Shown piece by piece: positions 4,550 through 22,372 of a stretch of DNA of 22,372 bases. The notes beneath the pieces were generated by a model. It saw only the letters and a list, made by a program, of their open reading frames with translations, was not told where the DNA came from and did no database searches. This stretch comes from a virus: positions 13,782-36,153 of the IMG/VR virus record IMGVR_UViG_3300030430_004068; one strand, written 5' to 3'. Both the position numbers and the translations under genes were made by a program. Every line of letters starts with the position of its first letter. The first letter of the stretch is position 1.

Positions 4550-4602
4550 AAGCAGCTAATGAAAGTTAACTACAAAAAATACGACAACTGGATAATTATA
4601 TT

Positions 4603-5976
4603 ATGCCTAGAGAAATAGAAATTATACCATTTGCTAGTAATGACTTAAACTCTGATTATCTTTATTCTCAAAGAGAATATTACGTCTCCAGTTCTGAGGT
4701 TTATCCAGCAGAGGATGACAGGAACAATATTTTACCCAGGCCATTAGATATATGGTATGAAAGGCCATATTGGGGTAAAGTAGATACAAAAGGTCGTTTA
4801 GTATTTCCAGACTCTGATAAATTACTTCAAGTGGGAAATGGTTTAACTATTATTAATTTTATATCTAACGCTTATGATGATTTTAGAAACTTTGCTCTTG
4901 ACGCTAGAAATCGATTAAGAACTTCTATGACATCTTTTATAGAAATTGATAATCCAAAAAAAGCACAGGAAGGTGTTGTTTTGGATTATCAAAACTATTT
5001 TGAAAATACGCTAGATCAAGGTTTCGTTAATACTTATCTATCTGATGTAGACAAAATAAATATGTATAATTTTTTAGATTTTGCCAGAGAGTACGAGGGC
5101 TTCGTTGAACAAAATTCAGAAATACCTCACACTCTAGCTGGTTTTTTACTATCTCCACTGGTGAGTTATAGAATCAGTGGCCTGATCATAGAGTTTGCGG
5201 AAGATCCTTATGATAGAGATACTGATAAGTGGATTAATTATTTATCAAATGATTTTTTTGATGATTATATTAGATTAGCCGCCTCATTTGGTTTTTATGT
5301 AAGTAAACATGTCCCATGGGCGATAGCGGCAAACTTAAATTCAAGTCAAATGAAAAAATACATGGAACCATATGGTATATCAAATGCCGCACAACACTTT
5401 AATAAAAATTGTTTACAAGCAGAATATATCAGTTATATATCTTTTAAAAAATACATGTTTCTTTCATATTCATCATTTATATCTCATAGACCTAGAACTG
5501 AAGTAATGAAATACAAAAATTGTATAAGAAGTAAGCTAGCTGAATCTTCTTTTAAGCTTGAAAGAGAAATTATTCTAAGACCAGCGGAAATAGCTTATTT
5601 TGATCCAAACTACTCTAATTTTACAAATATATATTCAGACTATACTTTTATGAAATTGTATGTTAAAATAAGATTAATAGAAGAAAAAATTAAATTAAAA
5701 AGAATAGAATATAATATATTAATTAATAAATTAGTATTTCAATATAAGAATACAGACTTATTTGGAGCAATGCTTTATTTTTCAGACTTTTTGGCCAATA
5801 AAAGAAGAAATAATTTTTCTAAGTTGACAAGGATAAAAAATCCTGATATGATGTCTCAGAATGTTGGCACTAGCCAGAGTGCTGGAATATCAGCCTCGTC
5901 GTATTTTCCAAGCACTAGCACTGGAGCAACATCAACTGCCTCTACTGGTGGAGGTGGTTCAACATCTGGATATTAA
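4603..5976 (+). CDS. Putative structural (tail/neck/baseplate) protein, unknown function
   Basis: 457 aa, not recognised. It begins MPREIEIIPFASNDLNSDYL and is rich in Tyr, Phe, Asn and Asp throughout. It has no signal peptide or clear membrane helix. A Lys/Arg/Ile-rich helical region (about 345-385) precedes a low-complexity C-terminal tail (about 418-457) of Ser, Thr and Gly, ending in a GGGG stretch, a composition common in exposed virion appendages or flexible linkers. It is the last gene of the tail module; the family A polymerase reading frame begins within its final codons. No strong ribosome site precedes ATG 4603. Expression may be coupled to upstream translation: a 19-codon in-frame-shifted reading frame at 4559-4618 overlaps the start but lacks support. 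The structural role is inferred from position and composition only. Confidence 0.5.
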   Translation: MPREIEIIPFASNDLNSDYLYSQREYYVSSSEVYPAEDDRNNILPRPLDIWYERPYWGKVDTKGRLVFPDSDKLLQVGNGLTIINFISNAYDDFRNFALDARNRLRTSMTSFIEIDNPKKAQEGVVLDYQNYFENTLDQGFVNTYLSDVDKINMYNFLDFAREYEGFVEQNSEIPHTLAGFLLSPLVSYRISGLIIEFAEDPYDRDTDKWINYLSNDFFDDYIRLAASFGFYVSKHVPWAIAANLNSSQMKKYMEPYGISNAAQHFNKNCLQAEYISYISFKKYMFLSYSSFISHRPRTEVMKYKNCIRSKLAESSFKLEREIILRPAEIAYFDPNYSNFTNIYSDYTFMKLYVKIRLIEEKIKLKRIEYNILINKLVFQYKNTDLFGAMLYFSDFLANKRRNNFSKLTRIKNPDMMSQNVGTSQSAGISASSYFPSTSTGATSTASTGGGGSTSGY

Positions 5977-7175: not shown

Positions 7176-7445
7176 ATGAAAGTTACAAAAGATTATCTTA
7201 AACAATTAATCTTAGAAGAGCTGAGTGAACAAGAGGGATTATCTGCTGCTGATTTCAAAAAGCAACAAATACAACAAGCAACTAAAATGCAGTCGGGTGT
7301 TCAAGATAAAGAAAGAGCAATACTATCTCAAGTTGAGTCAAAACTGAGAAAGTTTGCCGAAAAGGGAAACTTAGCAGCCGCAGGCCGATTAACAAGAATC
7401 TTACAAATGTTAAACGCTGAATTGGATAAGGTGCTTAAGAAATGA
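7176..7445 (+). CDS. Small protein with capsid-targeting-like leader; putative internal head protein
   Basis: 89 aa, ATG after a TGAGGT ribosome site at 7163-7168. The N-terminus MKVTKDYLKQLILEELSEQE is a short amphipathic helix followed by LxE motifs (L13-E-E15, L16-S-E18). The rest is a helical, charged, Gln/Lys-rich protein (for example VESKLRKFAEKGNLAAAGRL) with no membrane segment. Known: in T4, internal head proteins and Alt carry an N-terminal capsid-targeting sequence that the prohead protease gp21 cuts after L/I-x-E. Inference: this is a core or internal head protein processed in the same way. Its stop overlaps the next start (ATGA at 7442-7445), and that next protein bears a similar leader. 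The biological function is otherwise unknown. Confidence 0.6.
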   Translation: MKVTKDYLKQLILEELSEQEGLSAADFKKQQIQQATKMQSGVQDKERAILSQVESKLRKFAEKGNLAAAGRLTRILQMLNAELDKVLKK

Positions 7446-8265: not shown

Positions 8266-9114
8266 ATGCTAACCGTCATAGGCTTGGGTAAAGCAGGGTG
8301 TAACATAGCGGACGCACTCTCGACTTATCCACAATATCAAGTGAAAAAAATAGATGTGGGATTGAAAAAGACCAAAACAACATTTGGTCTTAAGCACCAA
8401 GACAGCCCTGAGCTTTATGAAAAAAGCAATATGCCGAAAGGTATAAATAATTTCCTAGAGGGGGTGATGCCTGAAACTTTATTTATCACAAGTTGCGGGG
8501 CTGTCTCTGGTGCTTCCTTAAAGATTTTACAGAAAATACACACCAAAACCAAAATACGAGTAATGTACGTCCTGCCACAGAGAGATGACCTTGCTGGTGA
8601 AAAACTCTTACAAAATAACCTACTTTTCAACGTCTTTCAAGAATATGCTCGATCAGGATTATTAGATCGGGTGTTTTTAGTTGACAATTCTAAATTATCT
8701 GATATAATAGGCCCTGTAGCAATAATGAAGTTTTGGGATTCAATAAACAACTTGATTGCTACAACTTATCACATGCTAAATGTATTTCAAAACACACAGG
8801 CAATAATGACTACACAAACAAAACGTATTAATACTGCGCGTGTATCCACCTTTGGTTTACTTGACTCAGAAAATAATCAAGAAAAAATGTTTTTTGATCT
8901 TGACATTCCAAGAGAAAAAAGTTATTATTATGGTGTTCCGAAAAAACAATTGGAAGAAGATCCTAATCTTATGGAGGTTATTCGTAAAAATTTAAAATGT
9001 AATGTAGAACACGAAAAAATGAAAACTACTTATTCGGTACACTCAACCGATTATAATGAGCTTATAGCTTACTGCGAAAAAAGCAGCACTTTAATACAAC
9101 AACTAGCAGTGTGA
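8266..9114 (+). CDS. Divergent tubulin/FtsZ-like protein
   Basis: 282 aa, with a GAGGAA ribosome site about 5 nt before the ATG. Seen: an N-terminal Rossmann-like MLTVIGLGKAGCNIADAL (compare FtsZ IKVIGxGGxGxN); at residues 76-84 SCGAVSGAS, in the place of the tubulin signature GGGTGTG; then VMYVLPQRDDLAGEKLLQNN, DRVFLVDNSKLSDIIG (N141, like FtsZ IPNDKLL), and a long helix to about 170. The order and spacing match the FtsZ/tubulin GTPase domain, followed by a shortened second domain. Oddities: two of the signature glycines are replaced, and no acidic residue is obvious in the T7-loop region (about 172-182), so GTP hydrolysis may be altered or lost. Known phage members of the superfamily (PhuZ, TubZ) form filaments that position DNA or heads. 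Role here is inferred; a non-polymerising paralogue is possible. Located between putative head proteins and the SSB. Confidence 0.6.
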   Translation: MLTVIGLGKAGCNIADALSTYPQYQVKKIDVGLKKTKTTFGLKHQDSPELYEKSNMPKGINNFLEGVMPETLFITSCGAVSGASLKILQKIHTKTKIRVMYVLPQRDDLAGEKLLQNNLLFNVFQEYARSGLLDRVFLVDNSKLSDIIGPVAIMKFWDSINNLIATTYHMLNVFQNTQAIMTTQTKRINTARVSTFGLLDSENNQEKMFFDLDIPREKSYYYGVPKKQLEEDPNLMEVIRKNLKCNVEHEKMKTTYSVHSTDYNELIAYCEKSSTLIQQLAV

Positions 9115-11698: not shown

Positions 11699-12673
11699 AT
11701 GAGTGAGAGAGTCATCATTATAGATGGACTAAATATGTTTCTGCGAAGTTACATTGTAGTCCCACAACTTTCGAAAGAAGGCCAGCCCATTGGTGGAACA
11801 ACTGGCTTTCTTAAGTCCCTTCAAAAGCTCTGTCGTGAAATGAAACCAACACAAATTGTTGTCTGTTGGGATGGTCGCGGCGGAAGTAGAAAACGTAAAC
11901 AACAAAATAAAAATTACAAAGAGGGCCGAGCGCCAATTCGACTTAATCGTAATTTTAAAGTTTTAACAGAGGACCAAGAAAAAGAAAATAAAATCTGGCA
12001 GCAAGAAAGAATTTGTGAGTATCTAAATAGCTTTCCAGTTATGCAGTTGATAGCAGATGAAGTTGAAGCAGATGATATTATTTCTTACATATGTCGTCAA
12101 AGTTGTTTACGCGATAGTGAAAAGATTATTGTTTCAAGCGATAAAGATTTTTATCAGCTTCTTGACAATAAGACTATTCTTTATCGACCAGTACAGAAAA
12201 AGCTTTTAACGCAAAATAGTGTGATAGACGAGCATGGCATTCACCCAAATAACTTTGCTCTTGCTCGTGCTATCGTCGGAGATAAATCTGATAATTTAGA
12301 TGGAGTTCCTGGTATTGGATTGAAAACAGTTGCTAAACGCTTTCCTTTCTTTCAAAAGGAGGAAGACGTTTATATTAATGATTTAATGGAGTTCTGTGAA
12401 AATCAAGAAAGCAACGCTAAGGCGTTTACCTCTATAAAAGAGAACAAACAACTTATTCAGTCTAATTATAACTTGATGCAGCTGTATAGTCCTAGTCTCT
12501 CGGCACAGACTAAACAAAGCATCGAATGGATTATTGACAACTTCGAACACACCTTCAATAAGACTCAAACGTATAAAATGATGTTAGAGGATGGGATCAA
12601 TGAGATCAATTGGAATTCTATGTTCGAAAGTTTCGCAAGAATCCAAAGGGATAAAAAGGAACTTAATAAATGA
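11699..12673 (+). CDS. 5'-3' exonuclease / RNase H (T4 Rnh, PolI 5'-nuclease family)
   Basis: 324 aa. Seen: N-terminal IIIDGLNMF (D9), VVCWDGRGG (D58), EVEADDIISY (D125, D126), SSDKDFYQLL (D148, D150), and GDKSDNLDGVPGIG (D195, D198), the last being the helix-3-turn-helix DNA-binding motif. This is the full set of acidic metal ligands of the FEN/5'-nuclease superfamily. Length and lack of a polymerase domain match T4 RNase H, which removes RNA primers from Okazaki fragments. Its substrate is inferred. No ligand is missing. The next gene starts by ATGA overlap at 12670. Its separate existence is consistent with the exonuclease-free polymerase at 5972. Confidence 0.85.
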   Translation: MSERVIIIDGLNMFLRSYIVVPQLSKEGQPIGGTTGFLKSLQKLCREMKPTQIVVCWDGRGGSRKRKQQNKNYKEGRAPIRLNRNFKVLTEDQEKENKIWQQERICEYLNSFPVMQLIADEVEADDIISYICRQSCLRDSEKIIVSSDKDFYQLLDNKTILYRPVQKKLLTQNSVIDEHGIHPNNFALARAIVGDKSDNLDGVPGIGLKTVAKRFPFFQKEEDVYINDLMEFCENQESNAKAFTSIKENKQLIQSNYNLMQLYSPSLSAQTKQSIEWIIDNFEHTFNKTQTYKMMLEDGINEINWNSMFESFARIQRDKKELNK

Positions 12674-13047
12674 AGAACTTAAAACCAATTTTTATTGAAA
12701 ATAGCAAACTACCTTATTGGCTATCGAAGATCGCTCCTATCGATGTATGGGCTTTCTCTGCTGGTCCATTTGTTGTTTGTCGAGGGCAGTTAAGTGAAAA
12801 AACAATAACTCACGAGACTATTCACTTTTTACAGCAAGTTGAAATGTTGTTTGTGTTTCAATGGATTTTATACGGTTTGTTTTATGTTATTGGTCGTTTT
12901 ACAAAGGGAAGCTGGAAAGCAGCGTATTACGGAAACCCATTTGAGGTCGAAGCATACGCAAACGACTTAGACCCAGATTATCTTGAAGAAAGAAAATTTT
13001 GGGCCTGGACAAGCTATGTAAAAAGTTTGTTTAGTCGACAAAGCTAA
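12670..13047 (+). CDS. HExxH-motif putative membrane metalloprotease-like protein
   Basis: 125 aa, ATGA overlap with the previous gene. Seen: THETIHFLQQ with H48-E49-x-x-H52, followed by a hydrophobic helix LFVFQWILYGLFYVIG (about 60-75), and NPFEVEAYAND with E92/E94. Known: the H-E-x-x-H plus a downstream Glu is the zinc ligand set of gluzincin-type metallopeptidases, including small minigluzincins; phage proteins with HETIHxxQQxEMLFVxQW and NPFExEAY features occur in my memory of environmental phages, but are uncharacterised. The protein also has W-rich segments (around 20-30 and near the C-terminus). Inference: a membrane-associated peptidase-like protein; a substrate is unknown, and loss of activity cannot be excluded. 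Confidence 0.6.
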   Translation: MKNLKPIFIENSKLPYWLSKIAPIDVWAFSAGPFVVCRGQLSEKTITHETIHFLQQVEMLFVFQWILYGLFYVIGRFTKGSWKAAYYGNPFEVEAYANDLDPDYLEERKFWAWTSYVKSLFSRQS

Positions 13048-13053
13048 AAGCAG

Positions 13054-13059
13054 TATAAT
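13054..13059 (+). promoter_or_regulatory. Possible -10 element (TATAAT) upstream of the 13110 gene
   Basis: A perfect TATAAT lies just after the 13047 stop codon. A 17-bp spacing would put a poor -35 (TTAGTC) at 13031-13036, so this is a weak candidate. If used, transcription would begin about 13066, at the 5' edge of the hairpin 13068-13092. The absence of a good -35 makes this uncertain. Confidence 0.35.
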
Positions 13060-13067
13060 TACCTATA

Positions 13068-13092
13068 GGGGGCGTGATCATTTCCGCACCCC
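13068..13092 (+). other. RNA hairpin upstream of a TTG-started gene
   Basis: GGGGGCG at 13068-13074 can pair with CGC-A-CCCC at 13085-13092 (one bulged A), with a 10-nt loop. The outer A13067-T13093 pair may extend it. No T tract follows, so it is not a standard terminator. It sits at the expected 5' end of a transcript from the TATAAT at 13054 and ends 4-5 nt before the GGGAG ribosome site at 13097-13101. A 5' stabilising hairpin or translational control element is possible. Confidence 0.45.
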
Positions 13093-13109
13093 TTATGGGA
13101 GTTATATCA

Positions 13110-13346
13110 TTGAAAAAAATACTTATTATCACTTTATTAATCTTATCTTTTGCTGCCACAGCAGCGCCACCAAAAAAATCAAAATTTTATGATTTCGGAG
13201 ATCAAATGATCGACGGAGAAATCAAGAAACCAACGGGCCAATACATCAATTCTAGAGAACGAGCAAGGTTTGATAGACTGTTGAGTTTAAAGAAATCTTT
13301 TCTGCCTAAAATGTTTCTCACTTCAAAAGAAAAAATATTTAAATAA
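13110..13346 (+). CDS. Small secreted protein with N-terminal signal peptide
   Basis: 78 aa, start TTG 13110 chosen because GGGAG at 13097-13101 is 8 nt upstream and because the protein then begins with a clean signal peptide (M-KKILIITLLILSFAATAA, cleavage likely before APP). An ATG at 13074 lies inside the hairpin and would add residues in front of the signal peptide. The mature part is basic: FYDFGDQMIDGEIKKP, then FDRLLSLKKSFLPKM. Small proteins with a D-x-x-I-x-G-E-x-K-x-P core and R-L-x-x-L-K-x-x-F-L-P-K-M end resemble secreted proteins that I associate with Bdellovibrionota/Myxococcota; this is memory-based and may hint at the host. Function unknown; export to the periplasm or envelope is likely. 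Its gene is followed by a strong promoter at 13354. Confidence 0.6.
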   Translation: MKKILIITLLILSFAATAAPPKKSKFYDFGDQMIDGEIKKPTGQYINSRERARFDRLLSLKKSFLPKMFLTSKEKIFK

Positions 13347-13353
13347 TTTGGGC

Positions 13354-13382
13354 TTGACATTGCTTTTTACTTAAGTTAAATT
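13354..13382 (+). promoter_or_regulatory. Sigma70-type promoter for the 13412 gene
   Basis: TTGACA (13354-13359), a 17-bp spacer and TAAATT (13377-13382). The -35 is a perfect consensus. Transcription would begin near 13389, giving a short leader with the AGGAGG ribosome site at 13401-13406. One of four similar promoters in the window (also at 13624, 16923 and 21243). Confidence 0.8.
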
Positions 13383-13411
13383 ATAGTTACTGTATAACAC
13401 AGGAGGCAGTG

Positions 13412-13573
13412 GTGCGAAACTTTTTATACGGTTTAGGTTTATTACTGTATATTTTGCTCACCTCTGCGTTTGTTCAGCCTGTTGATTATAGCGAATCATC
13501 AAGCATTTCAGAGACTTCTGAGAAATCAAAAAGCAAAAAGAAAAAGAAAAAAAAGCGTAGACTGAGACGCTAA
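13412..13573 (+). CDS. Very small membrane/secreted protein with lysine-rich tail
   Basis: 53 aa from GTG 13412, with a perfect AGGAGG ribosome site (13401-13406) 5 nt upstream and a strong promoter at 13354. The N-terminus M-RNFLYGLGLLLYILLTSAF is hydrophobic (signal peptide or membrane anchor, about residues 4-20). It is followed by a short Ser/Glu-rich stretch and then a very basic C-terminus of Lys and Arg (about 16 residues, KKKKKKK...RRLRR). Dedicated promoter, ribosome site and reading frame length support a real gene that a length cutoff would miss. Possible function: membrane-attached interaction with nucleic acid or phospholipid; not testable from sequence. A weak terminator-like stem overlaps its 3' end. 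Confidence 0.7.
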   Translation: MRNFLYGLGLLLYILLTSAFVQPVDYSESSSISETSEKSKSKKKKKKKRRLRR

Positions 13574-13581
13574 AGTTTTTT
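13554..13581 (+). terminator. Possible weak terminator after the 13412 gene
   Basis: AGCGT (13554-13558) can pair with ACGCT (13567-13571) across an 8-nt loop. A T tract (TTTTTT) follows at 13576-13581 after AAAG. An upstream A-rich stretch can pair with the T tract, extending the stem. The 5-bp G:C-containing core is short, so efficiency is doubtful. It overlaps the stop codon of the 13412 gene. Confidence 0.35.
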
Positions 13582-13623
13582 ACCCTATAACATTCACCAC
13601 TTATGAAATAGTTGATATTCAAC

Positions 13624-13652
13624 TTGACTTTTCAAACCATAAAGGTTATATT
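13624..13652 (+). promoter_or_regulatory. Sigma70-type promoter for the helicase gene
   Basis: TTGACT (13624-13629), a 17-bp spacer and TATATT (13647-13652). Transcription would begin near 13659; the AGCGAGGA ribosome site at 13667-13674 and the ATG at 13679 follow directly. It likely drives the helicase-RNR operon. Confidence 0.8.
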
Positions 13653-13678
13653 TATATCCACAAGTCAGCGAGGAATTA

Positions 13679-15037
13679 ATGGACAGTTTAGGAATTTTTG
13701 GAAAGAGTTTCCAAGAAAACATGTGTAAGCTTATGCTTTACGACCGGTCTTATTGTGACCAAATGCAGGAAGTGTTAGATGTTAAATATCTAGAGCTAAA
13801 GTATCTTCAAGTTTTTACTGATAAACTTTTTAATTATAAGAAAGAATATGGGATTCATCCGACAAACGAAACACTCAACTCGGTTCTCAATACAGAACTA
13901 ACAGATGAAAATGAAGTAATCCAAAAACAAGTGATGGATTATTTTGTCAAAGTCCAGGCGTTTCCGGATATATCAGACAAAGACTATATTGTGTCTAAAT
14001 CTGTAGACTTCTGTAGAAAACAAGTTCTTAAAAAGGCAATGATGAAGTCGGTGCCTCTTTTGAACAAGTGCTCATTTGAGGAAATAGAAAAGTTAATATC
14101 TGATGCCCTACGTTTAGGTATAAACAATGATCATGGTTATGACTACATTAAAGATTTTGAGGCTCGCTTTATTGAACGAGCCCGTAATCCAGTTACAACC
14201 GGCTGGACAAAGATAGATAAAATCACCAAAGGCGGTCTGGGCCAAGGCGAACTTGTGGTGGTTGTTGCCCCAACTGGTGCGGGAAAATCACATGTTCTCG
14301 TTCACCTTGGGGCACAAGCACTCAAGCAAGGTAAAAACGTTGTTCATTTTACGTTAGAACTTGCCGATACGTCCGTTGCTCAACGTTATGATGCCTGTCT
14401 TACCGGTATTCCATTAGACGAACTTATAAATCAAAAAGATGAGGTTTATGATGTAATCAAGGATATTGATGGGCAACTTATTGTAAAAGAGTTTCCAACT
14501 AAGTCTGCTTCTGTTGTGACGCTTAAAAATCACTTAGAAAAAATCAGACAAACAGAAATGGAAATCGATATGATCGTTGTTGACTACGGCGATTTATTAA
14601 AAAGTTCAGTAGTTCGTAAAAATTCTGAGAAAAGACATGAATTAGAATCTATTTATGAAGAGCTACGCGGACTTGGACAAGAGTTTGGTTGCCCTATAGT
14701 AACCGCTTCACAAACCAACCGAAAGGGTCTTAACGAAGAAGTAATCACAATGGAGTCAATCTCGGAAGCATTTAATAAGTGCTTTGTTGCGGATTTTATT
14801 ATCAGTCTATCTAGAACTATTAAAGATAGGAATGCTAATATTGCGCGTATTTTTGTCGCCAAAAACAGAAACGGCCCCGATGGAATCGTGTTTTCCGCGT
14901 TTATGGATACATCGAGCGTGTCTATTAAAGTCCTAGAGAGAGATGATGTTGTCAAGTTACAACAACAGCAATTAGCGAAACAACAACAGAAGGAATTCTC
15001 CAAAGCCCGAGAAGTCTTTAGAAATATGAATAAATAA
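13679..15037 (+). CDS. Replicative DNA helicase, DnaB/gp41-like
   Basis: 452 aa, AGCGAGGA ribosome site. Seen: an N-terminal region (1-160) with a helical, DnaB-N-like character, then TGWTKIDKITKGGLGQGELV, Walker A APTGAGKS (A197-S204, K203), HFTLELADTSVAQRYDACLT, Walker B-type MIVVDYGDLL (D302), and VTASQTNRKG (about 342-350) with the conserved Q-x-x-R sensor. These are the DnaB-family motifs H1-H4. The C-terminus is Gln/Lys-rich. Role: ring-shaped 5'-3' helicase at the replication fork. The length and absence of a primase domain match T4 gp41 and DnaB. I did not see a separate primase in this window. It is transcribed from the promoter at 13624, followed by the RNR gene only 14 nt later. 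Confidence 0.85.
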   Translation: MDSLGIFGKSFQENMCKLMLYDRSYCDQMQEVLDVKYLELKYLQVFTDKLFNYKKEYGIHPTNETLNSVLNTELTDENEVIQKQVMDYFVKVQAFPDISDKDYIVSKSVDFCRKQVLKKAMMKSVPLLNKCSFEEIEKLISDALRLGINNDHGYDYIKDFEARFIERARNPVTTGWTKIDKITKGGLGQGELVVVVAPTGAGKSHVLVHLGAQALKQGKNVVHFTLELADTSVAQRYDACLTGIPLDELINQKDEVYDVIKDIDGQLIVKEFPTKSASVVTLKNHLEKIRQTEMEIDMIVVDYGDLLKSSVVRKNSEKRHELESIYEELRGLGQEFGCPIVTASQTNRKGLNEEVITMESISEAFNKCFVADFIISLSRTIKDRNANIARIFVAKNRNGPDGIVFSAFMDTSSVSIKVLERDDVVKLQQQQLAKQQQKEFSKAREVFRNMNK

Positions 15038-15051
15038 GGAGAGAAAGACAT

Positions 15052-16914
15052 ATGCCACAAGACATCGCCAACAAGACATTATCGGACATAACAGTCCATA
15101 TGAAGTACGCAAAGTACTTACCACAGAAAGAGAGAAGAGAAGTATGGTCAGAGTTAGTAGATCGCAACAAAGCGATGCATTTAAAAAAGTTCCCGGAGAT
15201 GAAAGAAGAGATAGAAGCTGCTTATGAATATGTATATGATAAAAAAGTTTTGCCTTCTATGCGTTCTATGCAGTTTGGCGGTAAGCCCATTGAAGTGGCC
15301 CCTAATCGTATTTTTAATTGTGCCTATTTGCCTATCGATGATTGGCGTTCATTTCATGAAATTATGTTTTTACTTCTTGGTGGCACTGGTGTCGGCTATA
15401 GCGTACAGTTTCATCACGTAAACAAACTACCAGAGATTACAAGACCGTCTGTTAAGCGTACACGTCGCCACCTTGTTGGTGATAGCATAGAAGGCTGGGC
15501 AGATGCCGTAAAGGTTTTGATGAAGTCCTACTTTACTGGTGCTTCAAAAGTTCGTTTTGATTATAGTGATATCCGGCCAAAAGGAGCCAGACTAGTAACT
15601 TCAGGTGGCAGAGCGCCAGGACCACAGCCTCTTCGTGAATGCTTGGTAAAGTTGGAAGGTATCTTATGTAACAAAGAAACAGGTGATAAACTTACTCCTA
15701 TTGAAGTTCATGATATGGTGTGTTACATCGCAGACGCAGTTTTAGCTGGTGGCATCAGGCGAGCGGCTCTAATATCTCTATTTTCTGCTGGTGATGATGA
15801 AATGATCTCCGCAAAGAGCGGTCACTGGTGGGAAAAAAACCCGCAACGAGGCCGAGCAAACAATTCTGTTGTTCTTATGCGCCACTTGGTTACGGAAGAG
15901 TTCTTTAAAGACCTCTGGTTTCGCGTAAAGGCGTCAGGAGCAGGTGAGCCAGGGTTTTATTTCTCAAATGATAAAGACTGGGGCACTAATCCATGCTGTG
16001 AGATCGCTCTTCGCCCCTACCAGTTCTGTAATCTAACAGAAATCAATGCTTCTGACGTAGATAGCCAAGAGGAAATCAACGCAAGAGCCCGAGCAGCCAC
16101 ATTTATTGGTACTTTACAGGCTTCTTATACTGATTTTCATTATCTTCGCGACGTATGGCGTAGAACAACGGAAAAAGATGCTCTTGTTGGCGTTTCTATG
16201 ACCGGCATTGCTTCAGGAAATGTTCTTAAGTTAGATATGAAAGAGGCAGCAAAAGAAGTAAGAGAAGAAAATAAAAGAATCGCTGATCTTGTGGGCATTA
16301 AACCAGCAGCACGCACAACTTGCGTAAAGCCAGCAGGAACAACAAGCTTAACTCTTGGAACATCCTCTGGTATTCATGCTTGGCATAACGATTATTACAT
16401 TCGCCGCTTACGAGTCGGTAAAAACGAAGCAATATACAATTATTTGTCTATTTACCACCCAGATCTTGTAGAGGACGAATTTTTTAGACCACATGACACA
16501 GCAGTTATATCCGTCCCCCAGAAAGCACCGCAAGGAGCTATCACACGAGATGAAACTGCTATGGATATGTTAGAGAGAGTTAAAAAAGTTTCTACAGAGT
16601 GGGTGAAAAATGGACATGGCAAGGGTCAAAACACTCACAATGTTTCAGCTACTGTTTCTATTCGCGAAGATGAGTGGGATACTGTTGGCCAGTGGATGTG
16701 GGATAATCGTGCTGTTTATAATGGTTTATCTGTTCTTCCTCATGATGGTGGCACTTACAAGCAGGCTCCGTTTGAAGACTGTGACGAAGTAACTTATATT
16801 AAGCTGCTAGATACACTGGAAGATATTGATTTATCTAAGGTTATCGAGATTGAAGACAACACAGACCTCAAAGGCGAACTAGCTTGTGCTGGTGGGGCTT
16901 GCGAAGTTTCATAA
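15052..16914 (+). CDS. nrdJ: Class II (adenosylcobalamin-dependent) ribonucleotide reductase
   Basis: 620 aa; ribosome site AAGGAG at 15036-15041. Seen: IFNCAYLP with C90, GGTGVGYSVQ, RRAALISLFS, NPCCEIALRPYQFCN with C315, E317 (radical Cys/Glu) and C326 (pairing with C90), VKPAGTTSLTLGTSSGIHAW, and the C-terminal pair C612/C617 in ACAGGACEVS. This is the RTPR-type reductase: ribonucleotides to deoxyribonucleotides using adenosylcobalamin, with thiol transfer via the C-terminal cysteines. It is shorter than the 739-residue Lactobacillus leichmannii enzyme, so parts of the allosteric or insertion regions may be missing. Advantages: single-gene, oxygen-independent dNTP supply, but the host (or the environment) must provide cobalamin. 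It shares an operon with the helicase; a promoter for the next gene lies just after its stop. Confidence 0.9.
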   Translation: MPQDIANKTLSDITVHMKYAKYLPQKERREVWSELVDRNKAMHLKKFPEMKEEIEAAYEYVYDKKVLPSMRSMQFGGKPIEVAPNRIFNCAYLPIDDWRSFHEIMFLLLGGTGVGYSVQFHHVNKLPEITRPSVKRTRRHLVGDSIEGWADAVKVLMKSYFTGASKVRFDYSDIRPKGARLVTSGGRAPGPQPLRECLVKLEGILCNKETGDKLTPIEVHDMVCYIADAVLAGGIRRAALISLFSAGDDEMISAKSGHWWEKNPQRGRANNSVVLMRHLVTEEFFKDLWFRVKASGAGEPGFYFSNDKDWGTNPCCEIALRPYQFCNLTEINASDVDSQEEINARARAATFIGTLQASYTDFHYLRDVWRRTTEKDALVGVSMTGIASGNVLKLDMKEAAKEVREENKRIADLVGIKPAARTTCVKPAGTTSLTLGTSSGIHAWHNDYYIRRLRVGKNEAIYNYLSIYHPDLVEDEFFRPHDTAVISVPQKAPQGAITRDETAMDMLERVKKVSTEWVKNGHGKGQNTHNVSATVSIREDEWDTVGQWMWDNRAVYNGLSVLPHDGGTYKQAPFEDCDEVTYIKLLDTLEDIDLSKVIEIEDNTDLKGELACAGGACEVS

Positions 16915-16922
16915 AAATCCTC

Positions 16923-16951
16923 TTGACAAATTAATAAAATTTTATTATTAT
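16923..16951 (+). promoter_or_regulatory. Sigma70-type promoter directly abutting a start codon
   Basis: TTGACA (16923-16928, perfect), a 17-bp spacer and TATTAT (16946-16951). Transcription is expected around 16957-16959, which coincides with the ATG at 16958 of the lipoprotein gene. This implies a leaderless or nearly leaderless mRNA. Confidence 0.8.
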
Positions 16952-16957
16952 ATGTCT

Positions 16958-17257
16958 ATGAAGAAATCAATTATTGGTTTGGTCCTCACACTTGCTCTTG
17001 GGTGTGAAATTAGACCTCATCCCTTTTCAAGAGTACAATTTGTTAACCAACCGGCACAACCAGTTGCTGCTTGTGAATATAATTTTTATCATACTGGTCC
17101 AAGAAATTATGAGTACTGCACGTCGTATGACGAGTTTGGTGACTGTGATTGTTACGTAGTTTACGATCCAACAGTCATTGATCACGAGTGCTATGTTGAA
17201 TATTGTTACTACTGGGATACTTGCCGGTGGGAAACTTACGATTACAGTTGTTATTAA
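16958..17257 (+). CDS. Cys/Tyr-rich exported lipoprotein-like protein
   Basis: 99 aa. I chose ATG 16958 (M-KKSIIGLVLTLALGC): the signal peptide starts with M-K-K. ATG 16952 would add only two residues, and a frame open back to 16886 overlaps the RNR. The n-region is KK, the h-region IIGLVLTLAL, then G-C at residues 14-15 as a lipobox-like site (A-L-G-C, a slight deviation because the -2 residue is L). The mature part has 9 Cys and about 14 Tyr, with many Asp/Glu; the Cys come in C-D-C and Y-C-Y-Y contexts. Disulfide-bonded, surface or periplasmic role is likely. No homologue recognised; superinfection exclusion or envelope modification are only guesses. Its own promoter lies immediately upstream, with no ribosome site, and the gene is followed by AAGGAG for the next gene. 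Confidence 0.65.
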   Translation: MKKSIIGLVLTLALGCEIRPHPFSRVQFVNQPAQPVAACEYNFYHTGPRNYEYCTSYDEFGDCDCYVVYDPTVIDHECYVEYCYYWDTCRWETYDYSCY

Positions 17258-17267
17258 GGAGAAAAAA

Positions 17268-17573
17268 ATGACACCAAAATTTTTACAAGTTGTTGAAGAA
17301 GTAGAAGAAAATCAAAACAATGAAGAATCAAAAGATCATTATGTTGTTAACTATCTTAAATCTATGATCGCTTTAGAAGAAGCTATGGAACCTTTTAAAG
17401 AGCAGAAAAAAGAGTTACGAGCAGAATATATTGAGAATGGCTGGTTAAGTAAAGAGGAGATTTGGTCTGCTATTAAGGCATTTCGAATGTACCAAAAATC
17501 AGCTGATCTCGATGCCGTTAATGAAATGTTTGATCTAATTGAAAAGAAATTTGGCCCGAAGGAGGAAGTATGA
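17268..17573 (+). CDS. Small charged helical protein (GapR-like fold possible)
   Basis: 101 aa; ATG 17268 follows AAGGAG at 17257-17262. Seen: an acidic N-terminus (VVEEVEENQNNEESK), then a helical region EEAMEPFKEQKKELRAEYIE followed by NGWLSKEEIWSAIKAFRMYQ and DLDAVNEMFDLIEKKFG. The pattern of a Lys/Glu-rich helix, a short turn with N-G, a second helix with I-x-x-x-x-R-x-x-x and an acidic last helix is reminiscent of GapR (DUF2312/UPF0335) nucleoid proteins. This similarity is weak and I do not claim it. No membrane segment. It overlaps the start of the next gene by ATGA. It was previously readable from 17178 but the ribosome site favours 17268. Confidence 0.55.
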   Translation: MTPKFLQVVEEVEENQNNEESKDHYVVNYLKSMIALEEAMEPFKEQKKELRAEYIENGWLSKEEIWSAIKAFRMYQKSADLDAVNEMFDLIEKKFGPKEEV

Positions 17574-17851
17574 GTTTAGATCCAAGAAATCGTTTTTTAT
17601 TATTAGAGGAAGCACCAGCACAAACGGAAAAAGAGCTACCAACTATTCTTCTACCAGAAGATTATAATGTAAAAACAAATCCATTTGCCGTGTATAAGAT
17701 TAGTCAAATTTCAACTGACTGTACCAAAGTTAGTTTAGAAGACATTGGTAAATTAGTTGTGGTTGAAGATCACATGGTTTCAACAGCCAGTTTGGATCAA
17801 GGTGACTTCTTGTTGGTTCAAGAAAACCACATTTATGGAGTTTTGGGTTAA
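17570..17851 (+). CDS. GroES/gp31-like co-chaperonin candidate
   Basis: 93 aa, ATGA overlap; GGAGGA ribosome site at 17561-17566. Seen: MSLDPRNRFLLLEEAPAQTE, then LPTILLPEDYN, PFAVYKISQIS, IGKLVVVEDHMVSTASLDQG and ending QENHIYGVLG. The layout matches GroES: an N-terminal beta-strand with x-D/P-R-x-x-x-x-E, a mobile loop-like stretch with an (I/L)-x-(I/L) tripeptide (I-L-L), a strand, G-K-L-V-V-V (compare G-D-x-V), and a final E-x-x-I-x-A/G-V-L. Known: T4 gp31 substitutes for host GroES to fold the major capsid protein. Inference: same function. The sequence lacks the roof Gly-rich loop seen in GroES. The co-chaperonin call needs structural or profile support. Confidence 0.5.
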   Translation: MSLDPRNRFLLLEEAPAQTEKELPTILLPEDYNVKTNPFAVYKISQISTDCTKVSLEDIGKLVVVEDHMVSTASLDQGDFLLVQENHIYGVLG

Positions 17852-17890
17852 ATTAAAACAATTAACCTATTTAAGTTTATTAACTTTAAT
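17846..17890 (+). other. A+T-rich inverted repeats between two genes
   Basis: GGTTAA (17846-17851) pairs with TTAACC (17862-17867) over a 10-nt loop, and AAGTT (17873-17877) with AACTT (17882-17886). The first overlaps the stop codon of the GroES-like gene. There is no T tract, so termination is uncertain; they may be a weak terminator or a binding site. Confidence 0.3.
17862..17890 (+). promoter_or_regulatory. Weak promoter candidate upstream of the lytic transglycosylase gene
   Basis: TTAACC (17862-17867), 17-bp spacer, TTTAAT (17885-17890). The -35 matches 4/6 and the -10 matches 5/6 of the consensus. It overlaps the inverted repeats listed at 17846, so alternative explanations exist. It would start transcription near 17897. 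Confidence 0.3.
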
Positions 17891-17918
17891 ATACAATGAG
17901 TAAAAAGGAGAATAAGGT

Positions 17919-18497
17919 TTGATAGGATATATTGTTTTAAGTGTTATCACTACAAATAACTTAAGTTATGACTACAATGATCTAATAAATGAGGCGTATG
18001 AATGTAGAAACGCCAAACAAGAAGTATTGGATACGGGAATAGTAGAAAAGCTAGTTGAAATAGAAGATTTCTACTTTCAAGCATATAAAATCCCAGAAGA
18101 TTTACGAGGAATGTTGCTAGCTGCAGCTTGTGTTGAGAGTGGTTACGATGCCCGTGCAAAAGGCGATTGGAAAATCACTTTTAAAACAAAAAAGCACCCG
18201 AGGGCCAAAGGAATACTTCAGTTTTGGCATTGGGCAGAAAAAGAATATGGACTCAATAGACTCGACCCAATACAATCAGCTCATGTTTGGATGATTCACG
18301 TCGCAAATACTCGTGATAAAGATCGTTGTAGAGGCTACAGGATGACAAATAAACAAAAATGGCTAGGTGCTTGGGCACAAGCTGTTAGAGGTCGCCTTAC
18401 AAAACAAAACCGATATCGTTGCTTTCAGCGAACCAAGCACTGGAAGAAATTAAGGAAATGGAAGAAAAATATTAAAAACTATGACGAAGGATGTTAA
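17919..18497 (+). CDS. Lytic transglycosylase-like (SLT domain) protein
   Basis: 192 aa, TTG start at 17919 with AAGGAG at 17905-17910 (8-nt spacing). Seen: a short hydrophobic N-terminus (M-IGYIVLSVITTN), then AAACVESGYDARAKGD with catalytic Glu73 (V-E-S), RAKGILQFWHWAEKEYGLNR with the G-I-L-Q motif, SAHVWMIHVANTRDKDR, and a basic C-terminus with Lys/Trp repeats (KHWKKLRKWKKN). These are the signature elements of goose-type/SLT lytic transglycosylases, which cut peptidoglycan between MurNAc and GlcNAc. It could be the endolysin or a virion-associated lysin. The hydrophobic N-terminus may be a signal-anchor. An 8-codon reading frame at 17896-17922 ends by TTGA overlap with the TTG start. Overlaps the next gene by 17 nt. 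Confidence 0.7.
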   Translation: MIGYIVLSVITTNNLSYDYNDLINEAYECRNAKQEVLDTGIVEKLVEIEDFYFQAYKIPEDLRGMLLAAACVESGYDARAKGDWKITFKTKKHPRAKGILQFWHWAEKEYGLNRLDPIQSAHVWMIHVANTRDKDRCRGYRMTNKQKWLGAWAQAVRGRLTKQNRYRCFQRTKHWKKLRKWKKNIKNYDEGC

Positions 18498-19164
18498 TAT
18501 AACAATTGGTGGAAGCTTAAACGCTCTACAATGGGCTTATCAACACGGGACTAGATTGATAATAAATAAGCCTTCCTTTCCTCCTCCCTATGAGCCCTCA
18601 AGCACAAAACTTGCCTGGGGGCTACTTTATTACAAGCTGATGATGGACGGCAAAATAATTGGTGGCGATTATGTAAATGCAGTCCGAATTGACGATGACG
18701 AAATCATCGTTGCTTGTAAAAATAATATAATAAACAAAACAGTTTATAATAAAGTAACTCTTTTTGATGACGAAAACGTCATAGGACTTCCTAATCAAAA
18801 AGAAGAAGTCGATCAATTTACCATAATAGACACAATGTTGGCCGTATCTTTTGTTTTTAAAGACACAGCCTTTACTCTTAAGACAGGCGACGACTTAGTA
18901 AGCGAAATCCACATCCACAAAGATTATATAAACAGTCCAGCAAAAATAGCAGTTGTTTCAAATTTAAATAAAAAACAGTTGAATGACTTTAATTTTTCTG
19001 ATACAATGGCTAAGTTCAAGACAGAAACAATACTGAAAGATGTAGGTTTCACGGGAAACTTTATGAAAAGAGATGAGATTGTTTTAGAAGTTCAAGAGCG
19101 AATAGTTAAACCTAAAATGAATATCTATGAGGAAGCAGAAAAAATAAAGTTTATCTATGTATGA
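18481..19164 (+). CDS. Unknown protein with N-terminal Rossmann-like beginning
   Basis: 227 aa. Not recognised. It starts MTKDVNITIGGSLNALQWAY, where beta-strand then G-G-S-L-N-A-L resembles a nucleotide- or dinucleotide-binding beta-alpha turn. It continues with RLIINKPSFPPPYEPSSTKL and acidic stretches; no known catalytic signature is visible. ATG 18481 overlaps the lysin stop, and its stop overlaps the next start by 8 nt, so it is likely translated with both. Pairing with the nucleotidyltransferase-like gene (19157) suggests related substrates, for example in a sugar or base modification pathway. This is inference. Length and composition are unremarkable. Confidence 0.5.
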   Translation: MTKDVNITIGGSLNALQWAYQHGTRLIINKPSFPPPYEPSSTKLAWGLLYYKLMMDGKIIGGDYVNAVRIDDDEIIVACKNNIINKTVYNKVTLFDDENVIGLPNQKEEVDQFTIIDTMLAVSFVFKDTAFTLKTGDDLVSEIHIHKDYINSPAKIAVVSNLNKKQLNDFNFSDTMAKFKTETILKDVGFTGNFMKRDEIVLEVQERIVKPKMNIYEEAEKIKFIYV

Positions 19165-20062
19165 ACCCGCACTAACAATAAAAAACAAAACACACGTAAA
19201 CCTAGCAGGGATAGTCCCAGTAGCTGGTCAACCACTTGACTTCAACTTTCCCTGGCATGATAGCCTAATGCCTATTGGACACAACTACCTTGCTGTTGAG
19301 AAAGCAGTCTTTGATTGTGTAGTCGCAGGTTGTAATACAGTTTGGCTAGTATGCCCACGAGATATGCAACCTCTAATACGTTATCGCCTGGGTGATTGGG
19401 TTGTGGACCCTGTTCGTTATGACAAAGGACACACTTTTGGGAAAAGACCAAAAGTTTATGAAGTTCCCATTTACTATACGCCAATGCACCCAAAAGACAC
19501 AGGCCGTAGAGATTGCCTTGCTTGGAGCATCATTACAGGCGCTCAGTATGCTTGGCATGTAAGTAGAAAGATAAGTCGTTTCGCACATCCAGATAAATAC
19601 TTTGTTTCGTTTCCTTACGGCATGTTTTCTCCATGGTGGCTAAAAGACCACAGGGCAGCGATAAGAAATACAGATAAGAATTTTTATGTTGAATGTGACA
19701 ATAAAAACTTTAAAGATGGCCGCTTCTTGCCCTTTACTTTCTTTTCAGAAGATTTTTTAGAATGTCGTAAACATTTTAGAAAAAGTGAAACAAAAGGTTA
19801 TGATGATAAGCTAAACAAGTTAAAAGCGTCTGAAAGTTGGACCGGTCGGTATTTTACTCACGACTTTGTTTTTAGTAAAGTAAACACAGAAGGCGCATCA
19901 ACTTGTAGCCTGCCTTGGTATTATGATGTCTCTTCTTGGGAGGGACTAAAAGATTGGCTAGGTGGCGAACACAAATTAGAAAGGCCAAAAGAATTTTTAA
20001 TGTCATATAACGAATGGAACCCACTAGGAGTAGATATTGAAGAAAACACTGAAGATAATTAA
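19157..20062 (+). CDS. Nucleotidyltransferase-like (GT-A fold) protein
   Basis: 301 aa, overlapping the previous gene by 8 nt. Seen: near the start LAGIVPVAGQPLDFNFPWHD, then SLMPIGHNYLAVEKAVFDCV, AGCNTVWLVCPRDMQPLIRY and RLGDWVVDP. The L-A-G-x-x-P-x-A-G...L-x-P-I-x, then V-x-x-A-G-C-x-x-x-W-L-V-C pattern matches sugar-nucleotidyltransferase/MobA-like proteins, where the first part is the nucleotide-binding loop (here PVAG instead of the usual AAG-x-G-T-R). Later parts (KDHRAAIRNTDKNFYVECDN, then LPFTFFSEDF) are specific and unassigned. It could transfer NMP to a sugar, lipid or protein. The product is unknown; the altered binding loop may change the substrate or activity. Context with 18481 suggests a two-gene unit. 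The 40-aa gene at 20037 begins inside it. Confidence 0.6.
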   Translation: MYEPALTIKNKTHVNLAGIVPVAGQPLDFNFPWHDSLMPIGHNYLAVEKAVFDCVVAGCNTVWLVCPRDMQPLIRYRLGDWVVDPVRYDKGHTFGKRPKVYEVPIYYTPMHPKDTGRRDCLAWSIITGAQYAWHVSRKISRFAHPDKYFVSFPYGMFSPWWLKDHRAAIRNTDKNFYVECDNKNFKDGRFLPFTFFSEDFLECRKHFRKSETKGYDDKLNKLKASESWTGRYFTHDFVFSKVNTEGASTCSLPWYYDVSSWEGLKDWLGGEHKLERPKEFLMSYNEWNPLGVDIEENTEDN

Positions 20063-20159
20063 TGAAGTTTTATATTTTGTAATATTTTATACAGCGCTTT
20101 TGTGTTACTCGGCCGCGTATAAAATTCAAAGCTTTTTAATCAGAAAGAAAAACAAATAA
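20037..20159 (+). CDS. 40-aa single-span membrane protein
   Basis: Small ORF starting at TTG 20037, with AGGAG (20026-20030) 6 nt upstream. It starts inside the end of the nucleotidyltransferase gene in another frame and ends with TAA at 20157-20159. Product: basic N-terminus (M-KKTLKIINE), one hydrophobic segment VLYFVIFYTALLCYSAAY (about residues 11-28), then a basic end (FLIRKKNK). It fills a gap of 109 nt that otherwise has no gene. Good ribosome site and membrane-helix composition support it, but there is no other evidence. A holin-like or spanin-like role is possible because a lysin gene lies nearby; this is inference. Confidence 0.5.
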   Translation: MKKTLKIINEVLYFVIFYTALLCYSAAYKIQSFLIRKKNK

Positions 20160-20171
20160 CTATTTATTATT

Positions 20172-20969
20172 GTGAAACTTATACTTGAAAATTGGCGTCA
20201 ATACTTAAAAGAACAACAAGAGTCCGAACTGGGTGTCTATGTTGAAATGGAAAAAGGTTATGCAATAAGCCTTTCTTTAGTTAACTTAAGCGCCATACGT
20301 CAGCAACTACAAAACGCTTCTTCAGTTCAAGACTTTGTAAATAAACTTAAAAGCAGAGAAATGTATGATAGGGCAATATTGGGAAACATACGAGCACAGT
20401 ATAACCCCATGTTGGCTAAGTCTGGTGTTTCTGGCGGTCAATGCGGTCCTTCTGATAGCTATTCTGTTATTGGTTCTATTGGAAAAGGATATGGAGAAGA
20501 GCTATACAATGCCCTTCTTGGTTTCGCCGCATCGCAGAAAGATTACATATATATCACACCGGATAGGAATTCTGTTTCCCCAGGCGCCTCGAAAAGATGG
20601 AAGAAGGTTGATGATCAAACAGCAGATATAACTCCTCCGGGGACATCGGATATATATAACACAACGTTTGACCCAGTGGGGCAAAAACGAACCGCACCAA
20701 CTGATGATGATTGTAAAGTTCATGGCGTTGATCACCTAGATAGAGGTTATAGAGATGTAAATCAGGTTGCATTTTATAAAAAATTAAAAGATAATTTAGA
20801 TAACTTCTTTGTTAAGGAAGTGGAACCAATGTTTGAAAAACCAGGGTTTTTTGCTAAGTTATTTGGTAATACACCAGAGAGCAAAGCTTTGAAAATAAAG
20901 AAACAACTTCTTAAAGTAGGGAAAGCAAAGTTTTATGATTATCTCGCACTCGGCCACCAATTCGTTTAA
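20172..20969 (+). CDS. GNAT-like protein with capsid-targeting leader
   Basis: 265 aa, GTG start at 20172; no good ribosome site, so the start rests on the leader MKLILENWRQYLKEQQESEL, which matches the one at 7451 and ends in an LxE-like motif (L12-K-E14). After it come QYNPMLAKSGVSGGQCGPSD, SYSVIGSIGKGYGEELYNAL, and YIYITPDRNSVSPGASKRWK. G-x-G-Y-G-E-x-L-Y-x-x-L then (S/T)-D-R-x-S-V-S-x-x-A-x-R-x-W is the shape of the acetyl-CoA-binding and C-terminal parts of GNAT acetyltransferases. The C-terminus contains D-D-D-C and a Phe/Lys-rich end. Inference: an acyltransferase-like protein packaged in the head and injected, analogous to T4 Alt in carrying an enzymatic effector behind a cleaved leader. 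Substrate and activity are unknown. Confidence 0.6.
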   Translation: MKLILENWRQYLKEQQESELGVYVEMEKGYAISLSLVNLSAIRQQLQNASSVQDFVNKLKSREMYDRAILGNIRAQYNPMLAKSGVSGGQCGPSDSYSVIGSIGKGYGEELYNALLGFAASQKDYIYITPDRNSVSPGASKRWKKVDDQTADITPPGTSDIYNTTFDPVGQKRTAPTDDDCKVHGVDHLDRGYRDVNQVAFYKKLKDNLDNFFVKEVEPMFEKPGFFAKLFGNTPESKALKIKKQLLKVGKAKFYDYLALGHQFV

Positions 20970-21234
20970 AATAAATGTAACAGAGTTAACCAACCTAATA
21001 ATAAATGATATAAAGTTCTGCTCTATCGAAGATGGCAAATGTTCTGCCTTTCTTCATCTAACCGAAGATGCTCCAGAGTTCTCCATCAGGTGGGGAAATA
21101 AAATGCTCGTAAAGGAAGCTAATAAACCTTTTTCTATTGAACATCCATTACTAAACAAACATACCTTTAAAATCACAAACGTTCGACCCAAACCAAAGCC
21201 GATATCTATTTTTGAGTGGCTCAAAACACGTTAA
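20935..21234 (+). CDS. Unknown small protein
   Basis: 99 aa, not recognised. ATG 20935 overlaps the preceding gene by 35 nt in another frame; no strong ribosome site is seen, so the start is uncertain. Soluble and probably beta-rich: FSIRWGNKMLVKEANKPFSI, then NKHTFKITNVRPKPKPISIF. The W-x-x-K...P-F-x-I and K-I-x-N-V-R-P-K-P-K-P strands suggest a compact beta domain. Intergenic space with a promoter follows, so this gene ends its operon. Confidence 0.4.
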   Translation: MIISHSATNSFKINVTELTNLIINDIKFCSIEDGKCSAFLHLTEDAPEFSIRWGNKMLVKEANKPFSIEHPLLNKHTFKITNVRPKPKPISIFEWLKTR

Positions 21235-21242
21235 GTTTTCTC

Positions 21243-21271
21243 TTGACTTTAAACGCAAACTATATTAGTAT
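21243..21271 (+). promoter_or_regulatory. Sigma70-type promoter for the DnaE polymerase
   Basis: TTGACT (21243-21248), a 17-bp spacer and TAGTAT (21266-21271). Transcription would begin near 21278, with TTGGAG as ribosome site at 21285-21290 and ATG at 21296. Confidence 0.7.
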
Positions 21272-21295
21272 TAGCAAAAATAACTTGGAGAATAA

Positions 21296-22372
21296 ATGTC
21301 CGAAAGAACACAAAGTAGTATTCCGTTTGTAGGGCTTCACGCTCACAGCGGAACAGGTAGCCCTTTTGATGGACTCGGCTATCCTGGCGAACATATGGAT
21401 TTTGCCTATCAAAATGGTAATGATGCTCTGGCCTTAACTGATCACGGCAATATGAACGGCTTTGCTTATCAGGTACAACATGCTCAAAAAATGATGAAGG
21501 AAGGCAAAGACTTCAAGCCTATCTTTGGTGTCGAAGCTTACTTCTTGCCTAGCATTGAAGAATGGCGACAAGAGTTAGAGCGCGTCAAAGAGGATAAAAA
21601 AGCAAAGAAGTCGATTGATAAATCAGCCTCTGGAACGACTATTGAGAACGAAGAGAATAAAAGAGAAGTTAAAAACATTCTTAATCGTCGTCGCCATCTT
21701 ATCCTGTTGGCGCAGAACCAAAAAGGTTTGAATAATATATTTTCTCTTGTATCAAAGTCATATAGAGAAGAAAACTTCTATCGCTTCCCACGTATTGATT
21801 ATGCCATGCTAAAAGAACATAACGAAGGTGTGATCGCAGCTTCGGCTTGTCTTGGCGGTGTATATGCTGGAAACTTCTGGGAAAACCGTGAGGAAGGTGA
21901 TGAAGCTGTACTTAATGCTATGCGTGAGACAACCAGGAATATGGTTGATATTTTTGGTGATCGTTGGTATGGTGAACTTCAATGGAATAATGTACCAGAA
22001 CAGCATCAATTAAACCGTCTAATTATAAAAGTTTGCGATGAATTTGGCGTCGAATTGATTTCTACGGCTGATAGTCATTATCCAAACAGAACGGCCTGGA
22101 AAGATCGAGAACTTTACAAAAGGCTAGGTTGGCTAAGTAGGGGTATGCCCAAGTGGGCAACAAACACAGAACTTCCAGAGGGTGTCGAAGAAATTGGTTA
22201 CGAATTGTTTCCAAAGAATGGCGATCAAATGTGGGAGGCTTACAAAGAATATTCACAAAAATCAGGAGTACAATACGATGATAATATTATCCGAAGATCT
22301 ATTGAAAGAACGCATCAGATTGCTCACGAGCGGATTGAACGGTTTATGCCAGACAACACAGTTCGCCTACCA
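21296..22372 (+). CDS. dnaE: DNA polymerase III alpha subunit (family C, DnaE-like), N-terminal part; continues past the window
   Basis: 359 codons are open to the right edge, so the gene is truncated here. Seen: PFVGLHAHSGTGSPFDGLGY with H15 and H17, ALALTDHGNMNG with D49 and H50, PIFGVEAYF, RRRHLILLAQNQKGLNNIFS, AASACLGGV and STADSHYPN. These are the PHP-domain metal-ligand motifs of bacterial DnaE, all retained; in E. coli several are lost. An intact PHP domain often gives 3'-5' proofreading, so it may supply that here; this is inference. The palm catalytic aspartates are not in the window. Known: DnaE is the family C replicative polymerase of bacteria. With UvsX, gp32-like SSB and DnaB-type helicase nearby, it is a good candidate for the main replicase. 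A charged stretch around residues 90-130 may be an insertion between PHP elements. Confidence 0.85.
   Translation, partial: MSERTQSSIPFVGLHAHSGTGSPFDGLGYPGEHMDFAYQNGNDALALTDHGNMNGFAYQVQHAQKMMKEGKDFKPIFGVEAYFLPSIEEWRQELERVKEDKKAKKSIDKSASGTTIENEENKREVKNILNRRRHLILLAQNQKGLNNIFSLVSKSYREENFYRFPRIDYAMLKEHNEGVIAASACLGGVYAGNFWENREEGDEAVLNAMRETTRNMVDIFGDRWYGELQWNNVPEQHQLNRLIIKVCDEFGVELISTADSHYPNRTAWKDRELYKRLGWLSRGMPKWATNTELPEGVEEIGYELFPKNGDQMWEAYKEYSQKSGVQYDDNIIRRSIERTHQIAHERIERFMPDNTVRLP

Follow-up and report, generated by a model that had tools for sequence, protein, structure and literature searches.

The window, a stretch of 22,372 nt of viral DNA, belongs to a 37.9-kb virus record and was compared with 14 relatives from IMG/VR, giving 15 sequences in total. 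Inspection of the translations by eye revealed T4-like structural proteins, and the replication region contained an exonuclease (by eye), a DnaB-type helicase and a class II ribonucleotide reductase (RNR), the latter two recognized by PHROG and Pfam. The phage appears to be a lytic-type, T4-like environmental phage. At the locus under study, the stop codon of the RNR gene ended 8 nt upstream of a −35 element, which was followed by a −10 element, a short ORF for a predicted lipoprotein and a further cistron. The coordinates are listed in Table 1.

Table 1. Positions of the features discussed, numbered from the first letter of the window.
Feature	Position	Strand	Basis or remark
Adenosylcobalamin-type (class II) ribonucleotide reductase	15052..16914	+	PHROG 367, E 4.6e-130; Pfam RNR-II_ins_dom, Ribonuc_red_lgC
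−35 element TTGACA	16923..16928	+	Invariant in the window and 14 relatives
16-bp A+T palindrome TAATAAAATTTTATTA in the spacer and −10	16932..16947	+	Arms conserved, centre variable
−10 element TATTAT	16946..16951	+	Invariant; exactly 12 bp from its first T to the start codon
Discriminator of 6 nt, of which the last 4 vary; holds the non-conserved ATG 16952	16952..16957	+	Alignment of 15 sequences
Predicted transcription start, the A of the start codon	16958..16958	+	7th base after the −10; inferred
99-aa Cys/Tyr-rich predicted lipoprotein, predicted cleavage ahead of Cys16, 8 more invariant Cys	16958..17257	+	Alignment
Shine-Dalgarno AAGGAG of gene 17268	17256..17261	+	Overlaps the lipoprotein stop codon
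Next cistron, 101 aa, function unassigned	17268..17573	+	Directly 3' of RNR in relatives without the lipoprotein
Comparison promoter TTGACA-17-TAAATT, ~20-nt SD leader to GTG 13409	13354..13408	+	10 sequences aligned
Comparison promoter TTGACT-17-TATATT, ~20-nt SD leader to helicase ATG 13679	13624..13678	+	10 sequences aligned

The two hexamers were separated by a spacer of 17 nt, and for a −10 element that ends at 16951 the standard position of the transcription start is 16958. The earlier note had described this promoter as near-perfect, and the scan confirmed it: TTGACA-17-TATTAT matched 11 of 12 positions of the sigma70 consensus, which may not be that of the host, and was the top promoter in 12000-22372. 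On the plus strand of the window, 4 promoters scored at least 11/12 compared with 0.5 per dinucleotide shuffle, and a promoter with an ATG at a gap of 5-7 nt was found in only 2.5% of the shuffles. Another promoter near a start codon (5824-5852, ATG 5861) sits inside the preceding gene and was taken as chance. The palindrome in the spacer had a shuffle frequency of 0.17 in its window form and of 0.01 in the 9-bp-arm form of one relative, and arms of 9 bp were present in several relatives; it is possibly a repressor site (operator), which we regard as a weak lead. Separately, the gene at 8266-9114 contained a 12/12 promoter (TTGACA-16-TATAAT, 8681-8708) and an 11/12 promoter (8900-8928), both of which were kept in L097, L107 and L108, the latter within a stretch of more than 30 nt with zero changes.

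No AGGAG-type site was found upstream of ATG 16958, as the earlier note had stated. A clear Shine-Dalgarno (SD) site preceded most genes of the window; besides 16958, most of the exceptions (1850, 18481, 19157 and 20935) overlapped or nearly abutted the preceding gene, and the SD was weak or absent at gene 4603 and GTG 20172. The two comparison promoters were conserved with their SD leaders, suggesting that the phage therefore uses both modes of initiation.

In the alignment, all 15 sequences, some of which are near-identical and thus amount to fewer than 15 independent tests, had the same two hexamers, the same spacer length of 17 nt and the same 6 nt ahead of the start codon. Indels were confined to the stretch that separates the RNR stop from the −35 element, and substitutions occurred in the final 4 nt ahead of ATG 16958. 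The only start common to all 15 was ATG 16958, and in L003, L005, L006, L009, L013 and L014 no in-frame start existed upstream of it. Since the geometry was fixed and the upstream starts were not conserved, the spacing between the promoter and ATG 16958 seems to be maintained by selection. The exact promoter pattern occurred in 14 viral contigs, namely those that have the lipoprotein gene, and the promoter DNA gave weak matches in phage records.

The predicted protein carried nine invariant cysteines (one predicted to be lipidated, plus eight) and a lipobox (...LALGC). The signal peptide claimed in the earlier note held up, in that a PROSITE-style pattern for signal peptide and lipobox matched 13 of the 13 homologues tested; the Pfam LPAM_1 match stayed below threshold (14.1 bits vs 20). 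The mean dN/dS of the ORF was 0.13, which indicated purifying selection. Variable synonymous positions numbered 2 of 9 in codons 2-15 and 24 of 35 in codons 41-99; these numbers are small, and the difference is consistent with extra constraint near the 5' end of the RNA. In the proposed mRNA, nt 1-18 were predicted to be unpaired, with a strong hairpin predicted from nt 19 onward. Searches of phage records, bacterial genomes, PDB, Pfam and PHROGs returned no homologue of the lipoprotein outside the clade, and the AlphaFold model (pLDDT 39.5) was too poor for a structure search.

Collectively, we infer from the sequence comparisons, with a probability of about 0.82, that the ORF opens a phage operon as its leaderless first cistron, transcribed from the A of ATG 16958. 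The earlier note had proposed a leaderless mRNA at this position, and such an mRNA, or a nearly leaderless one, is supported by the fixed geometry in the 15 sequences, by the lack of an alternative conserved start and by the missing SD. The purifying selection on the ORF with few synonymous changes in codons 2-15, the predicted unpaired 5' end, the cI-like layout and the 6-nt preference across viral contigs also speak for it. On this reading, the host RNA polymerase would use a strong promoter of the host (sigma70) type that closely follows the RNR stop, and would start at A16958. With the start codon at the very 5' end of the mRNA, the ribosome would have to load on a bare AUG. Recognition of this 5'-terminal AUG would be direct, through either 70S ribosomes or 30S-IF2-fMet-tRNA, and the genes from 17268 onward would be translated off the same RNA through their own SD sites. 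The product, called exported in the earlier note, is by sequence predicted to be so; it would carry a lipid at Cys16 and probably form disulfide bonds. It would most plausibly act at the host envelope, perhaps in superinfection exclusion, a role guessed by analogy with Llp from its size, lipobox and cysteines. The hairpin predicted from nt 19 and a possible read-through RNA from the RNR gene, which would also carry the ORF, were counted against this reading.

The relatives bear on another explanation, that the promoter serves mainly 17268 and the genes beyond it, the lipoprotein ORF having been inserted behind an older promoter and being poorly translated. In three more distant relatives (L023, L037 and L031), a promoter at the same place feeds the 17268 homologue through an SD leader, and L047 resembles them by inspection. 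However, the closest relatives that do not encode the lipoprotein (L018, L019, L020 and L029) lack the promoter altogether, and their RNR stop is followed immediately by an SD and the 17268 homologue. In addition, the purifying selection on the ORF and its conserved start are hard to reconcile with poor translation. We consider this explanation unlikely, and it is in any case compatible with a leaderless transcript. Because promoter and lipoprotein are absent together, they behave as a unit (moron-like), and this cassette leaves the SD of gene 17268 intact. It may represent a gain here or a loss in the relatives, in either direction.

Less probable still, with roughly the standing of a long shot, is that the ORF is read from a long RNA of the RNR operon, either by A+U-rich, S1-dependent entry without an SD or by reinitiation after the RNR stop. 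The scan reported no terminator between the RNR and lipoprotein genes, and the 40 nt before ATG 16958 are A+U-rich, both of which would suit such an RNA. However, the RNR stop lies ~44 nt upstream, which is long for coupling, and this explanation leaves the invariant TTGACA, the 17-nt spacing and the 6-nt gap unaccounted for amid varying flanks and indels. Initiation at GTG 16886/16892 or ATG 16952, which are in frame in the window, is highly improbable, since 12 of the 15 sequences had the upstream frame closed at −45 or −57 (the longer extension with GTG starts being confined to the window, L007 and L012) and 7 of the 15 lacked ATG 16952.

The usual example of leaderless translation in phages is a single, proven case, the lambda gene cI. 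The earlier note had cited cI, transcribed from PRM, as an example, and the layout is indeed the same: a −10 element, 6 nt and an ATG without SD (TAGATT-6-ATG in cI). The present locus differs from cI in its consensus −35, which by sequence would need no activator, in its lytic-type replication region and in its predicted secreted product. Bacterial leaderless genes have been recognized by a TANNNT ~12 bp before the start (PMC3160421), and this spacing of TA-led leaderless genes, which is also the Deinococcus-Thermus pattern (PMC12340547), is matched exactly here. In contrast to those genes, this is a single gene with a strong −35 in a phage whose other genes mostly have SD sites. Phage transcripts have been reported to be often leaderless (PMC5312081), so together with PMC3160421 a leaderless phage gene is already a known kind. 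The superinfection-exclusion lipoproteins Llp of T5 and Cor (PMC9586334) are likewise small and phage-coded, with a predicted envelope location and the potential for disulfides. Unlike them, the present protein lies in a replication cluster and not beside a receptor-binding gene, has eight cysteines besides that of the lipobox, and showed no homology to Llp or Cor, having no PHROG, Pfam, PDB or phage-record match. What is new here is a well-conserved leaderless candidate; of greater interest is a by-product, the broad enrichment of the 6-nt gap described below.

Among 79 related loci, promoters scoring 10/12 or better had an ATG at a gap of 5-8 nt in 11 cases (including the chance site at window 5861) compared with 0 for the reversed motif, and at the looser 9/12 threshold the counts were 20 and 10. 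One of the close relatives carried a second leaderless candidate, a 5'-3' exonuclease gene (L018:1064-1100) with TTGACA-17-TATTAT, an ATG after 7 nt and no SD; the exonuclease has matches among isolates. In a distant clade (L059, L060, L061, L065, L068 and L080, ~3880-4550), the replicative helicase gene follows TTGATT-16-TATAAT with an ATG 5-6 nt later and is likely leaderless.

Among the matches listed for TTGACA-N17-TATAAT-N{5,7}-ATGAAA in viral contigs, the gap was 6 in 77 of 121. When distinct protein families with ORFs of at least 50 aa were counted among these matches (n=57), 44 had gap 6, 9 had gap 7 and 4 had gap 5 (binomial p ~1e-11 for the gap-6 preference). ORFs of at least 50 aa followed 69% of the matches listed at gaps 5-7 compared with 37% at gaps 10-12. 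In a scan of gaps 3-33 with 80 listed contigs, the distribution peaked at 6, dipped and rose again in a second hump that began at 23; an SD-like motif preceded 89% of ORFs at gaps of at least 14 and 7% at gaps 5-7, where the space for an SD is taken up by the −10 itself. These comparisons rest on ratios within one scan and on ORF lengths. Since proviral or host DNA may be present in IMG/VR, the 6-nt enrichment speaks of viral contigs rather than of proven phage transcripts. The genes at such sites, judged from translations by eye, included a gp43-like polymerase, an exonuclease and thymidylate synthase. The statement in the earlier note that leaderless genes are rare in phages was thus unsupported, given this enrichment and the report of PMC5312081.

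The locus offers a clean, conserved leaderless candidate from a lytic-type phage, and its layout may be common to many phage early genes, as the peak across the collection suggests. We tentatively propose, at somewhat less than even odds, that leaderless early genes with consensus sigma70 promoters are common in environmental phages, including among replication genes. Phages would use them to acquire self-contained cassettes of promoter plus gene that work without a leader, and changes in ribosomes and initiation factors during infection would leave their translation unaffected or favour it. Whether phages exploit such 70S or initiation-factor changes thereby becomes testable. Start-codon calling, which favours SD sites, would be affected if leaderless early genes are widespread.

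Several further features were observed. Two small ORFs adjoining the helicase gene (13110-13346 and 13409-13573) had signal-peptide or membrane N-termini and no family match. The proteins at 7442 and 20172 had a common N-terminal ENW motif (MKLIMENW and MKLILENW), which also occurred in L075. Motifs of the form CTATTTATA/T at L110:2460, L110:2864 and window 20160 were located just 5' of genes with SD leaders and look like T4-type late promoters of the phage; one motif of this type lay 3 nt upstream of GTG 20172.
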